NCBI GenBank assembly: GCA_913055805.1 | Contig: CAJXLF010000008.1 | Location: forward strand, 62,001 to 126,000 | Direction: 5' to 3' | Length of the DNA: 64,000 nucleotides | Origin: an uncultured Salinisphaerales bacterium | GTDB lineage: Bacteria > Pseudomonadota > Gammaproteobacteria > Nevskiales > CAJXLF01 | Part shown: positions 51,497 to 64,000 of the stretch, one piece after another | How positions within the stretch are numbered: the first letter of the stretch is position 1 | How the letters are laid out: every line of letters begins with the position of its first letter | The notes under the pieces: generated by a model | What the model was told of the DNA's origin: nothing | Databases searched by the model: none | The model's input: only the letters and a program-made list of their open reading frames with translations | Position numbers and translations under genes: made by a program

Positions 51497-51787
51497 GAAA
51501 CATCAGTGGTATCGGTGGACGGCGAGCCCGTCGTCATCTGGAACTGGCCGGTGGTCAATGACCTGAAACGCTGGGCGGATCACGAGTTTGTGATCCCGGC
51601 AGAGTACACCAAGGGCAAGCAGCAGATCGAGCTGTCGCTGGAAATCCTGCCGCCGGTAGAAACGCCTGCGATAAGTGGTCTATCCGCCGAGGATCTCGTC
51701 ACCACCCAGGTCAGCTTGCCTACACTGGGTATTCTGAATCAGGGTGGCTGGAGTGACTTCAGGTATGAAATCTATTCGATGAAGTAA
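51497..51787 (+). pseudogene. GH172 (DUF2961) C-terminal relic
   Basis: Encodes SVDGEPVVIWNWPVVNDLKR, continues through FVIPAEYTKGKQQIELSLEI, and ends SDFRYEIYSMK with a stop. The intact gene at 60838 ends nearly identically (GWSDFRYEIYSMK). The catalytic part is missing. It lies in the same orientation as, and two genes before, the chimeric DUF6351 gene, mirroring the intact GH172-DUF6351 pair at 60.8-64 kb. Confidence 0.82.
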
Positions 51788-52007: not shown

Positions 52008-53291
52008 ATGTTACGTAGAAAGTTTATTGTCCTGGTTGCTCTGATAATTGCTACGTTCGGCTACTTCATTCTCAACAGCGATAGTGGAAACCAAAGATTC
52101 TTCAAGGACCAAACGTACCATCATCTTACGATGCGCACACTCGGCCATATCCCGTATGGTGGTGCCGACACCGGCGAAGTGCTGGAGACCATCAAGCACA
52201 TTGAGTCCGGGGACTCGGATAGTTGGTATAACGCCTGGTTCACTACGGCGCAGCGGGTTCAAGCCATGGGCGAAGATCTTCAGGACCCAGTGAGTCGTGG
52301 CAGGGCTTTTCTTCGGGCGCACAATTACTATCGGACCGCCGAGTTCCTGCTCGATCCTTCTGATGAGCGCCGCAAAGATTCCTGGAACAAGACTATTCGC
52401 ACTTTTTACAAAGGTCTTGAAACCCTGGGTGTTGAATATGAAAAACTGAAAGTTGAATACGAATCCGGTCATTTGAATGCACTCTATTTCCCAGGCAAGG
52501 GTAGCGACGCTGGCGCACATACAAGGCCTTTGATCATTGTCTGTGGTGGTGTGGATTCGACAATGGAGGAGCTTTATTTTTCGCTCGCCGCCGGTGCCCT
52601 GGAACGTGGCTATTCGGTGCTGTTGTATGAAGGCCCGGGACAGGGTGCCGTGCTACGCGAGCAAGGAATGGTTTTTACTCCGGAGTGGGAGCGCCCAACC
52701 AAGGCCGTTATCGACAGCTATTTGGAGAAATACACAGCACCGTCGAGTATCGTGCTTGTCGGCATGAGCATGGGCGGATACCTGGCGCCAAGAGCCGCGG
52801 CATTTGATGATCGGATTGACGGCGTAGTCGCCTTTGATGTCTTGTATGACGTGGGAGAAGCCCTACGCTCTCAATCCCATGGCAGTTCTATCATTTCCTG
52901 GCTCAACAATTCAGGTATGGGCGCCCTGGCGAGCGTGCTTGTTGAGTTAAGGATGAAAACGTCGCCATTACTAAGCTGGGGCATCCGTAATACGCAATGG
53001 GTTACCGGGGCGACCTCGCTGAGTGCGGTTCCCGGGGCATTTGATGAATATACCCTGGAACCCGTGGCTGATCGCATACGCTCGCATGTCCTGATTTTGG
53101 CTGGTAGCGAGGATCATCTGGTGCCCTTGCATCAGGTCGAGCAGTTTCAACAATCACTGGTGAATGCGAAGAGTGTGGAATCTGTCATTTACGATGGCGA
53201 ATCGGGTGGTAAGGAACACTGTCAGGATGGGGCTGTGACGCTTTGGCATGGAACATTCTTCGACTGGTTGCACCGGAAGTTTTTGTCTTGA
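52008..53291 (+). CDS. Membrane-anchored alpha/beta hydrolase (dipeptidyl-peptidase/FrsA-like)
   Basis: A 427-residue protein. Residues 6-22 (FIVLVALIIATFGYFIL) are an uncleaved anchor or signal. The N-terminal 150 residues form a helical cap (LRAHNYYRTAEFLLDP), typical of the 2,6-dihydroxypseudooxynicotine-hydrolase/PF06500 group. The hydrolase core has VCGGVDSTMEE, YEGPGQG, nucleophile Ser254 in GMSMGG, Asp in GSEDHLVP and His in GKEHC. Such enzymes cleave carbon-carbon or ester bonds of small ketones or esters. It lies between the GH172 relic and the chimeric gene, so it probably arrived with the MerR part during the same rearrangement. The substrate is unknown. Confidence 0.83.
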   Translation: MLRRKFIVLVALIIATFGYFILNSDSGNQRFFKDQTYHHLTMRTLGHIPYGGADTGEVLETIKHIESGDSDSWYNAWFTTAQRVQAMGEDLQDPVSRGRAFLRAHNYYRTAEFLLDPSDERRKDSWNKTIRTFYKGLETLGVEYEKLKVEYESGHLNALYFPGKGSDAGAHTRPLIIVCGGVDSTMEELYFSLAAGALERGYSVLLYEGPGQGAVLREQGMVFTPEWERPTKAVIDSYLEKYTAPSSIVLVGMSMGGYLAPRAAAFDDRIDGVVAFDVLYDVGEALRSQSHGSSIISWLNNSGMGALASVLVELRMKTSPLLSWGIRNTQWVTGATSLSAVPGAFDEYTLEPVADRIRSHVLILAGSEDHLVPLHQVEQFQQSLVNAKSVESVIYDGESGGKEHCQDGAVTLWHGTFFDWLHRKFLS

Positions 53292-53403
53292 CCGTATCTT
53301 CTCTATCGACCATTTCGTCCAACCCTTATTCATCGGCCAGCAGCCAGGCGGCATATAGGCAAAACCGGATATTCTTGACCCACATTAATTGTGAAGGGCC
53401 AAT

Positions 53404-55755
53404 GTGATGTACATCGGCAAAGCAGCGAAACTGAGCGGCGTTTCAACCAAGACGATTCGCTACTACGAGTCTATGGGGTTGCTGCCTTCCGCTGAGCGGC
53501 AGGGCTCATACCGGGTGTTTTCCGAGCGTGATGTGCGTCTCATACGGTTAATCAAGCAAGTCCAGGAGTTGGGATTCCGCTTGTCGGAAATGAAAGAAGC
53601 GTTGTTGGCAAACAATCATGCGGTGCCGTGGGTAGAGGTTTGCCAGCTTATCCGCCAGAAAGAGACCGAATGCGAGCTGGAAGCCAAACGACTGACAGAC
53701 CTGAGCGTGCAGCTAAATGGCAGGGATGTCAGCAAGGTATTTGCTGTTGCCGCGAATGGTCGACTCATAGGGCTTGTCGATGGCCTGGAGCTGGGCACCA
53801 ATACACTTGTTGCCCGATTGCCTGGGTTGCCAGAGGGCAGCTTGAACATTATCAACCATCCTAACGGCGGCCCGATTTTTTCCGGCCCGCAAATCCAGCC
53901 CTGGGTTTGCCAGCAAGGTGCTGTTGATGATCAGTGCAATCAACCGCCGGAATATCGTTATCTATATAAATCCATTAACCCTGTAAATGTAGAGCTGGTG
54001 GAGTATGACCCGGACAACCCACCTGACGATGTGGCAACGACAACTACAGAGAATGGCGAAAGTCTGCCCTTTATCGTCCGTGAGGAACTTGGATACCAGG
54101 ATCGGGACCAATACAAGATACTGACCCTGTACCGCCCCGGGATGGACTGGAGCGCACAGGCTCCACAAAGCCAGTGGAATGGAAAACTGCTTATTACCCA
54201 TGGAGGCGGCTGCGGTGCCGACCATGCCGCAGGACAGGCCCCCCTGATTGATTATGGGGGCACGATTCCGACGAATCCGTTGTTTGAGCAGAGCTATATA
54301 GTGGCCTTGGGGCAGGGCTATTCTGTGCTGTCTACGGCCCTGGATAACAACGGACATAACTGCAATATTGCTCTTCAGGCCGAATCCCTGATGATGGCCA
54401 AAGAACGTTTTGTAGAGCAGTACGGCCTGTTGCGTTACACGATTGGTACGGGTTGTTCTGGAGGAGCGATTGTTCAGCAGCAGGTTTCGAATGCCTATCC
54501 CGGTATCTATCAGGGGCTGTTGACCATGTGTTCGTATCCGGACACCTTCACGGCCCTCACCCAGTTCGGTGATTATCATCTCCTGCGACGGTACTTCGAG
54601 GATCCATCCAGATGGGCCTTGGGCGTGGTGTGGACGCCGCAACAATTCGCTGACGTGGAAGGGCATGTCAGTCACATTAATGCTGCGTTTGCTGACGAAG
54701 TATTTTTCAAACCCCTGACCGATCCGGGCCGGACTTGCCCTGGTGTGGATGAGGCCGAGCGCTATGACGCCGTCAATAACCCCGGCGGCGTGCGATGCGG
54801 GGTCAATGATTACCTCATGAATGTGCTTGGCCCTCGTCCTCCCGATGTGTGGACTGATATCGAGAAAGATCTGGGGCGGGGTTTTGCCGGTAATGCCATC
54901 GTTGACAATGTGGGTATTCAATACGGGCTCAATGCCCTCAGGGAAGGACTGATTTCGCCGGCTCAGTTTGTCGATCTGAATGTAAAGGTCGGCGGCCTGA
55001 CGATCGATCTTGAGCCCCAGGTCCAGCGCACATCAGCAGACGCCCCGGCGCTGGCCCATGCCTACCGTTCCGGCATGATCAATTCCGGTGGGAATTTGGA
55101 CCGGGTGGCGATGATCAACTTCATCGGTTCGGACCCCGGCCTTGCTCATGATGCCGTGCATGGTTTCTGGACCAGGTGGCGGTTGCAGCGGGAACTGGGC
55201 CGGTACGATAACCACATCATGTGGTCTGGACCTGCACCGCTCATCGGTGATTTCAATTTTGTTTACACAGGGCTTGCTGCCATGGATCGCTGGCTGAGCA
55301 GCATTGAGCAGGATACAAGCCAAACCCCACTGGCCGAAAAGATAGTCATGAATAAGCCCTCTGACATCGGTGATAGTTGCAGTGACGGGAACGGTAATTT
55401 TGTACTGACCGACCTATGTCCTTCTCCGATACTGGAGGTGTACAGTACGCCCAGGTCAGTGGCAGGTGACGACAATCCGGGAGACGGAGTCAGTTGTGCC
55501 TTGCGCCCCTTCAATCGCGATGATGACTACGGTAATTCGGCATTCACGGAGGATCAGTGGCAGACTCTGGAAGAAATATTCGCAGACGGTGTCTGCGATT
55601 ATGCAAAGCCGCCACGGCACTTTCAGAATGCCGTCGAATGGTTGAGTTACCAGAATGCCAGCGGGCAGGCCATCTATGGGGGCGAGCCGCTGCCCTCCGC
55701 ATCATTTCCCTCAGGCTGGGCCAGTGAGGCTTTTCATGATGTATGGCCGGAATGA
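53404..55755 (+). CDS. Chimeric MerR DNA-binding domain fused to DUF6351 hydrolase
   Basis: A 783-residue frame with two unrelated parts. Residues 1-75 are a MerR winged helix (IGKAAKLSGVSTKTIRYYES, SYRVFSERDVRLIRLIKQVQ), then about 25 residues of the MerR coiled region (RQKETECELEAKRLTDL). From about residue 100 (SVQLNGRDVSKVF) the protein is DUF6351, matching the lipoprotein at 63168 block by block: NHPNGGPIFSGPQIQPW, EELGYQDRDQYKI, HGGGCGADHA. GTGCSGGAIVQQQ gives a nucleophile Ser352. The lipoprotein signal has been replaced by the DNA-binding domain, so a product would stay in the cytoplasm. No stop or frameshift interrupts it. GAAGGG precedes GTG 53404/ATG 53407. Confidence 0.82.
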   Translation: MMYIGKAAKLSGVSTKTIRYYESMGLLPSAERQGSYRVFSERDVRLIRLIKQVQELGFRLSEMKEALLANNHAVPWVEVCQLIRQKETECELEAKRLTDLSVQLNGRDVSKVFAVAANGRLIGLVDGLELGTNTLVARLPGLPEGSLNIINHPNGGPIFSGPQIQPWVCQQGAVDDQCNQPPEYRYLYKSINPVNVELVEYDPDNPPDDVATTTTENGESLPFIVREELGYQDRDQYKILTLYRPGMDWSAQAPQSQWNGKLLITHGGGCGADHAAGQAPLIDYGGTIPTNPLFEQSYIVALGQGYSVLSTALDNNGHNCNIALQAESLMMAKERFVEQYGLLRYTIGTGCSGGAIVQQQVSNAYPGIYQGLLTMCSYPDTFTALTQFGDYHLLRRYFEDPSRWALGVVWTPQQFADVEGHVSHINAAFADEVFFKPLTDPGRTCPGVDEAERYDAVNNPGGVRCGVNDYLMNVLGPRPPDVWTDIEKDLGRGFAGNAIVDNVGIQYGLNALREGLISPAQFVDLNVKVGGLTIDLEPQVQRTSADAPALAHAYRSGMINSGGNLDRVAMINFIGSDPGLAHDAVHGFWTRWRLQRELGRYDNHIMWSGPAPLIGDFNFVYTGLAAMDRWLSSIEQDTSQTPLAEKIVMNKPSDIGDSCSDGNGNFVLTDLCPSPILEVYSTPRSVAGDDNPGDGVSCALRPFNRDDDYGNSAFTEDQWQTLEEIFADGVCDYAKPPRHFQNAVEWLSYQNASGQAIYGGEPLPSASFPSGWASEAFHDVWPE

Positions 55756-60841: not shown

Positions 60842-63045
60842 TGAGTATTGATGCAATTGAAAAGCAGCCACTTCGCCGTAGTCTGGCTGCAGTCAGTCTT
60901 GTGCTCCTGCTGCTAGTTGGCTGTTCGGACAGTAATGACGATGATACGACACCGTCCACACCCGATCCGGTAACGGACCCGCAAGCGGCCATGTCCGAGT
61001 TGCCCTGCTACGACCAGCAGGCTGTAGTGGGTATGCATTCGAGTTTTTCTCGTCCCGGGCTGAATACCGACTTTTTAACGGTTACAGATCCCATTCCGCA
61101 TCAACGGCCGTATCTGTACCGGGACGATCAAGGCCGCTATGTGCTGCTGGATGTCAAAGGCCCGGGTGCGATCAAGAGAATCTGGATGACGCAGCTGTCA
61201 CCGGATGTGGTGAATGCACAGATTGCCCAGGGCCCGTTACTGGAGTCGGGCAACCTGCAGATTTTCTTCGATGACGAAACCGAGCCGCGTGTGGATATGC
61301 CGGCCATGGAGCTTTTCTCCGGTGAAACGGCGCCTTTCCTGACCCCCATCTGCGGCAATAACACCGTTTCCAGCGGGGGCAACTATTGTTATTTGCAAAT
61401 GCCCTTCGCCCAGCGTGCGGTGATTGCAGTAACCGGCCGCCCCAATTACTGGAATATCGAATACGACCGCTATGAATCTGGGCGCCAGGTGAAAACCTTC
61501 GACCCGGCGGACAAGCATTTCCTGGATGCGGCCACAGAACAGCAGCAGTTGCTGATGCGTTCGGGCAGTGATCCGGACATTCTGCCCAGCGGCAAGACCC
61601 ACGAGGATGAGCTGGATTTGCCGGCGGGCGGCAGTAGTGAACTGCTGGCGTTGTCCGGAGCCGGGGTGATCAAGGGATTCGAGATGATTCTGACCGGCGA
61701 TGCCGGTATTCAGGATCTCTGGCTGGAAGCTTCCTGGGATGGCGCCGAACAGCCCCAGCTGAGAGCGCCGCTTGGCGACCTGTTCATGAGCGGGCGCGGT
61801 GAAAAGAATGATGCCTTCGCGCTGCTTTCGGGCTTTGAGGTGGAAGCGAGGCGAGGCTACTTTTATTTCCCCATGCCGTTCTCTGATTCCGCGGTGCTGC
61901 GGGTGACCAATGAATCAGACAGCCCGGCCAGTCTGGAGTGGTCGCTGATTGAGTCGAAAGACAGCGCCCTGAGCAAGCGACAGGAATGTGGTTATCTGCA
62001 CGCCTATTACAACGAGCAGAACCCGACTGTTATTGGTGAGGATTATATTCTCATGGACCTGCAGGAAGCGCAGGGCAAGGTCGTCGCTATAACCCTGAAC
62101 GTTGACGGGACAGTTACGCCCACCGGGCACACCACCTTCCTGGAAGGAGACGAACGTATCTATATCGATGGCTCGCAGACGCCGCAGATCTACGGCACCG
62201 GGATGGAGGATATTTTCAACGGGGGCTTTTACTACCAGTTCGGCCCCTTCACTTTGCCCACCCACGGTCTTACCGCCAAGGAACCCTCCGAGCGTGGTAT
62301 GGGCTTCGCCCAGTATCGCCAGATGCTGTTTGATCCCTGGGATTTCAGAAACGGCATTCGCATTGGCGTAGAGCACGGGGGCGGCAATGGCGTTGTGACG
62401 GGCAATACCAGTGTAGTGCTCTGGTATGGCCGGTCCGAGGGCGCCATGCAGCTGAGCGACACGGTCGATGTCGGGAACGCCGATTCTGAAACTGGACATG
62501 CCTATACCTCCGGCAGCACGGAAGTGACTTCGCTGCAGAGTTATTACTCGGGCGATCACGATGGCAACCTTTCCTCGGAAGCTTTTGATGTGGTGATCTT
62601 CCCCGGCGCCATCCCCACGCTCGACCCGGCAGACCAGGTTGAGGACGATGGCCGTAATCACAATGTCGGCGACTTGATCAGCATGCGGGTTTCTGTTGAC
62701 CCGCAAAATCAGGGTGTGCTGGTCAGACGACGGATGGACAGCATCCTGTTCGACCAGACGGCCATGGTGTCGGTGGACGGGGAACCGGTAGGCATCTGGC
62801 ACTGGCCGGTAGTGAATGACCTGAAGCGCTGGGCCGATCACGAGTTTGTGCTCCCTGCGAAATTCACCAAGGGCAAGCAGCAGATCGAGCTTTCACTGGA
62901 AATTCTGCCGCCGATAGAAACACCGGCCATCAGCGGCCTGTCTATCGAGGATCTGGTGACAACGCAGGTCAGTTTGCCGACCCTGGGTATTTTCAATCAG
63001 GGTGGCTGGAGCGATTTCAGATACGAAATCTACTCGATGAAATAA
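60838..63045 (+). CDS. Glycoside hydrolase family 172 (DUF2961) lipoprotein
   Basis: A 735-residue exported enzyme. Lipobox LVGC gives Cys29, followed by an SDD-type linker. The body shows DUF2961 blocks: SSFSRPGLNTDFLTVTD, LLDVKGPGAIKRIWMT, ETEPRVDMPAMELFSGE, IEYDRYESGRQVKTFD, then the GDERIYIDGSQTPQIYGTGMEDIFNGGFYYQFG region that carries the family's conserved acidic residues. GH172 includes alpha-fructofuranosidase and exo-D-arabinofuranosidase activities (family knowledge). A C-terminal relic of a second copy is at 51497. It sits between a CocE-type hydrolase and a DUF6351 gene in one operon. The exact glycan is unknown. Confidence 0.87.
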   Translation: MMSIDAIEKQPLRRSLAAVSLVLLLLVGCSDSNDDDTTPSTPDPVTDPQAAMSELPCYDQQAVVGMHSSFSRPGLNTDFLTVTDPIPHQRPYLYRDDQGRYVLLDVKGPGAIKRIWMTQLSPDVVNAQIAQGPLLESGNLQIFFDDETEPRVDMPAMELFSGETAPFLTPICGNNTVSSGGNYCYLQMPFAQRAVIAVTGRPNYWNIEYDRYESGRQVKTFDPADKHFLDAATEQQQLLMRSGSDPDILPSGKTHEDELDLPAGGSSELLALSGAGVIKGFEMILTGDAGIQDLWLEASWDGAEQPQLRAPLGDLFMSGRGEKNDAFALLSGFEVEARRGYFYFPMPFSDSAVLRVTNESDSPASLEWSLIESKDSALSKRQECGYLHAYYNEQNPTVIGEDYILMDLQEAQGKVVAITLNVDGTVTPTGHTTFLEGDERIYIDGSQTPQIYGTGMEDIFNGGFYYQFGPFTLPTHGLTAKEPSERGMGFAQYRQMLFDPWDFRNGIRIGVEHGGGNGVVTGNTSVVLWYGRSEGAMQLSDTVDVGNADSETGHAYTSGSTEVTSLQSYYSGDHDGNLSSEAFDVVIFPGAIPTLDPADQVEDDGRNHNVGDLISMRVSVDPQNQGVLVRRRMDSILFDQTAMVSVDGEPVGIWHWPVVNDLKRWADHEFVLPAKFTKGKQQIELSLEILPPIETPAISGLSIEDLVTTQVSLPTLGIFNQGGWSDFRYEIYSMK

Positions 63046-63167: not shown

Positions 63168-64000
63168 ATGTCTTATAAAAAAAGTTTCAGATTTATTCTG
63201 CTGTTGTCTTTGTTCGCCATACTGTCCGCCTGTGGGGGCGGTGACAGTGACAACGACTCGCGTAACGACGGCAGTCAGTTATCCAGCTCTCCGTCTATCC
63301 ATGTTCTGTCAAACCGTGCGGATCTGATCAGTGGCGGCGACGCCTTGATCGAAGTGCTGATGCCGGAAGGCGCGAATGCAGACAAGGTCGGCCTCAGACT
63401 CAATGGTGCGGACGTCAGCAATGCGTTCGTCGAGACGGAAGCAGGCAACCTGCTGGGTCGGGTTACAGGCCTGAGGTTAGGCAAGAACAGCTTCACTGCT
63501 ACATTACCCGGGGGGAACGCCACGACTGAACTGATCAATCATCCGAACGGCGGCCCGGTATTCTCGGGCCCGCAGATACAGCCCTGGCAATGCCAGGAAG
63601 GCGCAGAAGACGAGCAGTGTAACCAGGCGCCGGTTTTCAATTATTTCTATAAGTCCTCGAACCCGCTCAATGCCGGTTTGCTGCCTTACGACCCGGAAAA
63701 CCCGCCTTCGGACGTGGCACAGACCACTACTGACCATGGTGTGACCGTACCCTTTATCGTGCGTGAGGAAATCGGCTATCAGGACCGTGACCAGTACCGT
63801 ATTGCGGTGCTGTTCAATCCACAAGAAGACTGGCAGCCCTGGGCGCCCCAGGAACAGTGGAACGGCAAGGTATTCGTACCCCATGGCGGTGGTTGCGGAG
63901 CAGATTACGGGGTTGGCGGTGCGCCAAAAACGGATTATTCCGGCACTTTTGATTTCGTGCCGTCAGAGGTGCCGGTCATCGTTGGTAATAGTCCGACCGT
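63168..64000 (+). CDS. DUF6351 hydrolase-like lipoprotein, partial at the window edge
   Basis: The gene begins at ATG 63168 with GAGGT upstream and runs past the window end, giving at least 277 codons. Lipobox LSAC gives Cys22 and is followed by a GDSDNDS linker. The next 120 residues form a beta-domain (VLSNRADLISGGDALIEV; LGKNSFTATLPG), then the DUF6351 core begins with NHPNGGPVFSGPQIQPW, EEIGYQDRDQYRI and HGGGCGADYG. It is the intact counterpart of the chimeric gene at 53404, where the signal and the first part are replaced by MerR. DUF6351 proteins are alpha/beta hydrolases of uncertain substrate, some near PHB-oligomer hydrolase/tannase-like enzymes. Confidence 0.85.
   Translation, partial: MSYKKSFRFILLLSLFAILSACGGGDSDNDSRNDGSQLSSSPSIHVLSNRADLISGGDALIEVLMPEGANADKVGLRLNGADVSNAFVETEAGNLLGRVTGLRLGKNSFTATLPGGNATTELINHPNGGPVFSGPQIQPWQCQEGAEDEQCNQAPVFNYFYKSSNPLNAGLLPYDPENPPSDVAQTTTDHGVTVPFIVREEIGYQDRDQYRIAVLFNPQEDWQPWAPQEQWNGKVFVPHGGGCGADYGVGGAPKTDYSGTFDFVPSEVPVIVGNSPT

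Follow-up and report, generated by a model that had tools for sequence, protein, structure and literature searches.

In BmrR and AlbA, a MerR head is joined to a large C-terminal effector domain. The effector domains of BmrR, TipA and AlbA are dedicated ligand binders present in many genomes, and in regulators of the BmrR/TipA type the ligand bound by the C-terminal domain controls the distortion of DNA. TipA has been described as an N-terminal MerR DNA-binding head with a large C-terminal domain (PMC7762955). Here we analyzed a window of 64,000 nucleotides from an uncultured Salinisphaerales bacterium, in which the first-pass annotation had described an in-frame fusion of a MerR domain to a DUF6351 hydrolase domain. 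The frame is as described: 783 codons are open from GTG 53404 through 55755, with no stop and no frameshift. Within this assembly the fused gene is genuine; it comprises the following features.

53407-55755, forward strand: merR'-DUF6351 fused open reading frame, 782 amino acids from ATG 53407 (783 from GTG 53404)
53407-53703, forward strand: MerR part, residues 1-99, with the winged helix and most of the dimerization helix but without the C-terminal sensor tail (Pfam, NCBIfam, PDB relatives, fold search and alignment)
53704-55755, forward strand: DUF6351 (tannase-like) part, entered at profile position ~29; the catalytic GCSGG is present, as is every strongly conserved residue past the join

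ATG 53407 is most likely the start rather than GTG 53404, because a Shine-Dalgarno-like GAAGGG (53394-53399) ends 7 nt before it. Internal starts close to the join (GTG 53707) had no good ribosome-binding site and were rejected. The two family names given in the first-pass annotation were borne out by the Pfam domain search: MerR_1 (PF13411) matched residues 3-67 (E 7.9e-16), MerR-DNA-bind (PF09278) residues 45-105 (E 5.8e-6), and DUF6351 (PF19878) residues 97-738 (E 7.2e-200, profile positions 29 to 651 of 655). Judged by these scores, two such family matches within one frame are not attributable to chance.

At its N-terminus the fused protein has a MerR-family winged-helix DNA-binding domain (PF13411 and fold search), followed by the dimerization helix (PF09278), which is predicted at residues 75-97 with low-to-moderate model confidence. 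In the PDB, the head is related in sequence to MerR, Mta, CueR, SoxR and CadR, and a fold search with a 200-residue model returned CueR, CadR and PbrR. The best NCBIfam match was CueR (TIGR02044), far under its cut-off, and the cut-offs of CueR, MerR and CadR were all missed by far. When aligned with separate MerR proteins, the fusion tracks them up to about residue 99 and then diverges, while the nearest MerR relatives extend about 28 residues further in a tail that ends with two spaced cysteines. The cysteine sensor loop that metal sensors carry at the C-terminus is missing from the fusion past residue 99, and the dimerization helix is probably a few turns short. In distant relatives the MerR neighbors are varied (a methyltransferase; flavodoxin-type and old-yellow-enzyme-type genes), and no regulon could be derived from such mixed neighborhoods.

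The DUF6351 side begins at the strand V-x-L-N-G-x-D-V-S. In both full-length paralogues of the same genome, a leader and SNRADLISGGD(A/V)LIEV... precede that strand; in the fusion, the signal and the SNRADLISGGDAL segment are missing, and the profile match starts from position 29 rather than covering a complete N-terminal beta domain. The catalytic body matches the family profile and keeps the GxSxG-type motif as GCSGG, in agreement with the earlier reading. Beyond the join, the protein agrees with other DUF6351 proteins at every column that at least 90% of them share; its one deviation is the missing N-terminal serine. The DUF6351 part has 12 cysteines, each at a position where most relatives also have cysteine. 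In the DUF6351 tree, the root-to-tip distance of the fusion is ordinary (1.40, median 1.34), and its branch is not long. At the sequence level no decay is visible in the hydrolase part. With its conserved residues kept and an ordinary branch, the fusion is either young or selected, and the data fit both.

At the join, MerR has lost about 28 C-terminal residues, and DUF6351 the signal peptide along with the initial ~28 positions of the domain. The join had been called seamless, which holds for the reading frame but not relative to the parents, each of which is incomplete. In the models, the MerR helix at 75-97 would run directly into a beta-domain strand at 100-103 with low-to-moderate confidence; the AlphaFold prediction of the whole protein was of low quality (six sequences, mean pLDDT 42.5), and we relied on it only in the MerR head and around the junction.

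The domain combination, which the first-pass annotation did not know of, was seen nowhere else in our genome, plasmid and phage, or literature searches. Among 76 distinct DUF6351 frames in the fetched loci, 71 reach the first 30 domain residues, and MerR stands only on copies of the window gene. Across the 100 nearest genomes, none of which turned out to be from the same family, the top DUF6351 matches start near query residues 91-116 (fragments aside), and the MerR matches are separate frames. Since no same-family genome was among those searched, one restricted to close relatives of this bacterium would have escaped notice. No second MerR-DUF6351 fusion was present in 369 genomes of the class, or in 398 genomes of the phylum and 396 genomes of another phylum with at most two candidates scored per genome, all three samples being draws from larger groups. 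In plasmid and phage records there was no fusion, each top match covering either the MerR portion or the body of DUF6351; among viral contigs, neither half had a relative. A search of the literature returned no paper on a MerR-hydrolase fusion, and the word DUF6351 occurred in one open-access paper, a single time.

It had been argued that many relatives with residues 1-100 as a separate gene and the DUF6351 start downstream would speak against the fusion. MerR and DUF6351 are indeed always separate elsewhere, but no close relative has MerR directly upstream, and no MerR gene was found within the several-kb neighborhoods of seven close DUF6351 relatives (L046-L051, L055). Other DUF6351 proteins nearly all have a lipoprotein or Sec-type leader where the N-terminus could be read (leaders were judged by eye), and one has an extracellular-type repeat region ahead of the domain. 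On a Caulobacter rhizosphaerae plasmid (L161, 11-5938), the 4 kb or so preceding a DUF6351 gene contain a hydrolase gene and two MerR genes, each a gene of its own. Relative G069 has three tandem DUF6351 matches (C32:5480-14302), and two DUF6351 genes in the other-phylum sample (G1182 C156 and G926 C30) have one TGA each within the matched frame.

The neighborhood of the fusion carries marks of rearrangement, which become apparent when it is compared with a paralogous arrangement in the same window.

51507-51787, forward strand: 3' remnant of a DUF2961 gene, 281 bp, 83.6% identical to 62765-63045; a rearrangement mark
52008-53291, forward strand: alpha/beta hydrolase gene that precedes the fusion and probably belongs to the inserted segment
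60838-63045, forward strand: intact DUF2961 gene, followed by an intact DUF6351 gene without an insert
63168-64000, forward strand: intact DUF6351 paralogue with a lipoprotein signal, continuing beyond the window end

The gene at 63168 is a DUF6351 gene with a lipoprotein signal, as had been annotated, and 122 bp separate it from the intact DUF2961 gene. Both 51507-51787 and 62765-63045 end at the stop codon, and their homology ends exactly there. Relative to the intact pair, about 340 bp (from the DUF2961 stop to about DUF6351 codon 73) is replaced at the fusion locus by about 1.9 kb in which the hydrolase gene is followed by a 5' portion of merR, and from this comparison we derived an insertion/deletion model. 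The two DUF6351 copies are only 57% identical in protein, and the DUF2961 pieces resemble each other more closely, which points to a history of more than one simple duplication; a third DUF6351 copy lies on contig C4 of the same genome. Downstream of the fusion are AraC and GDSL genes (55781 and 56911), whose counterparts adjoin a DUF6351 gene in relatives G030 (AraC and GDSL) and G001 (AraC). Thus, the DUF6351 side appears to be in an old setting and the MerR side to be the newcomer. The hydrolase gene at 52008-53291 had no orthologue in the order (85 genomes searched, own included); its closest relatives, about 46% identical, are plasmid-borne, in Martelella and a cold-seep isolate. The best plasmid relative (46%, Martelella) lacks a neighboring MerR gene, which leaves the hydrolase-MerR pair without a traceable source. 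There were no convincing direct or inverted repeats at the insert ends, and the insert is not strongly marked in G+C content.

Immediately upstream of the fused gene we noted one further pattern.

53372-53400, forward strand: candidate MerR-type promoter/operator, a weak lead, with TTGACC at 53375 and an imperfect CCC-N5-AATT-N5-GGG dyad

Promoter binding with a 19-20 bp spacer, a feature of the MerR family, may be represented by the candidate pattern at 53375 only. As the pattern at 53375-53400 was picked post hoc, after the site was seen, and its -10 element is poor, it gives just a weak lead toward possible autoregulation. About 20 bp of the intergenic sequence 53330-53352 recur on several contigs at 87-100% identity, possibly by chance.

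We infer the following order of events, reconstructed without a close relative in the pre-insertion state. A segment of about 1.9 kb, bearing the alpha/beta hydrolase gene plus a 5' merR fragment, would have landed between the DUF2961 end and the DUF6351 gene, and about 340 bp would have been removed, including the DUF6351 promoter region, the signal sequence and the first ~28 domain positions, such that the MerR and DUF6351 frames joined in register. The product would begin at the MerR methionine and, having lost the signal peptide, would remain in the cytoplasm, as the earlier suggestion of a non-exported protein implied. The MerR head should still allow dimerization and DNA binding. The hydrolase body keeps its catalytic residues, but it would fold in a reducing compartment with the first N-terminal beta-domain strands gone; because of both circumstances, full enzyme activity is doubtful. 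On balance, the fused gene is probably a lineage-specific passenger chimera born of insertion and deletion and without a selected new function. Its product would be a cytoplasmic MerR-type dimer that has lost the sensor tail but can probably still bind DNA, attached to a hydrolase body for which full activity is unlikely. Any role it has would most likely be that of a MerR-type DNA-binding protein, constitutive or blind to effectors, that carries a passenger domain. The truncation of both parents, an architecture otherwise unseen, the DUF2961 remnant and orphan hydrolase gene beside the join, the DUF2961-DUF6351 order of the intact pair, the MerR-free neighborhoods of the seven close relatives and the modeled passage from MerR helix to beta strand all count for the chimera. 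Against the absence of function count the lack of decay and a good ribosome-binding site, and the conserved residues are compatible with selection on the fused protein.

The same gene could be read as a ligand-sensing regulator, as had been suggested, in which the MerR head would sit on an operator (perhaps its own at 53375-53400) while the hydrolase pocket would bind or cleave an ester ligand and signal via the dimerization helix, in the manner of the effector domains of BmrR, TipA or AlbA. Such a regulator would account for a domain order like that of MerR regulators with large C-terminal effector domains, for a hydrolase part with all conserved residues, for a mostly retained dimerization helix, and for a MerR-like operator pattern just 5' of a gene whose neighbors code for esterase-type enzymes. 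However, the fusion occurs in a single genome, its hydrolase domain is N-terminally truncated, and the 12 family cysteines suggest an oxidizing compartment or an exported protein. A separate AraC-type regulator adjoins the fusion, with AraC genes also beside DUF6351 in two relatives; the operator pattern is post hoc with a poor -10, and the locus bears rearrangement marks. We found no positive support for ligand sensing and consider it unlikely. It is quite improbable that we have caught early a newborn one-component regulator, with an exported ester hydrolase now serving a MerR-type activator as its sensor, and with a paralogue of the donor and the rearrangement marks still alongside.

The MerR piece may instead supply only a start codon, a promoter and a soluble N-terminus to an internal esterase. 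The retained catalytic motif, together with every strongly conserved residue, and the lack of acceleration on the tree fit such an enzyme, but the first strands of the N-terminal domain are lost, the family is otherwise exported in nearly all cases with a readable N-terminus, and its cysteines are unlikely to pair in the cytoplasm, where such pairing is generally disfavored; an internal esterase is therefore improbable. As the fusion is known from one assembly alone, unrelated pieces might also have been merged by the assembler or by binning. However, the junction region is single-copy in the genome except for the diverged paralogue, so there is no repeat to drive a misjoin, and a repeat-driven assembly error is unlikely. 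In addition, no orphan 5' DUF6351 piece occurs elsewhere in the genome, the frame is kept, G+C content is even (0.535 and 0.549), the junction is internal to a 158-kb contig, and the listed contamination is 0.03, which together make any such join very improbable.

If the passenger chimera is non-functional, it is a well-preserved accidental in-frame product that warns against inferring function from a single domain fusion. If functional, a MerR regulator would have gained a new sensor from an enzyme in one step, with the donor paralogues still in the genome. The fusion shares with the DUF6351 (PF19878) family a near-full profile match and every strongly conserved residue after the join; unlike the family, it has a MerR head in place of the signal peptide and first N-terminal-domain strands. 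It resembles the CueR/CadR/MerR-type metal sensors in its winged helix, dimerization helix and fold, but its MerR stops at residue 99 and runs into a 680-amino-acid hydrolase instead of a paired-cysteine tail. With BmrR, TipA and AlbA it has in common the N-terminal MerR head and the large C-terminal domain; unlike in those regulators, the C-terminal domain of the fusion comes from a normally exported hydrolase, and the combination has been seen once.
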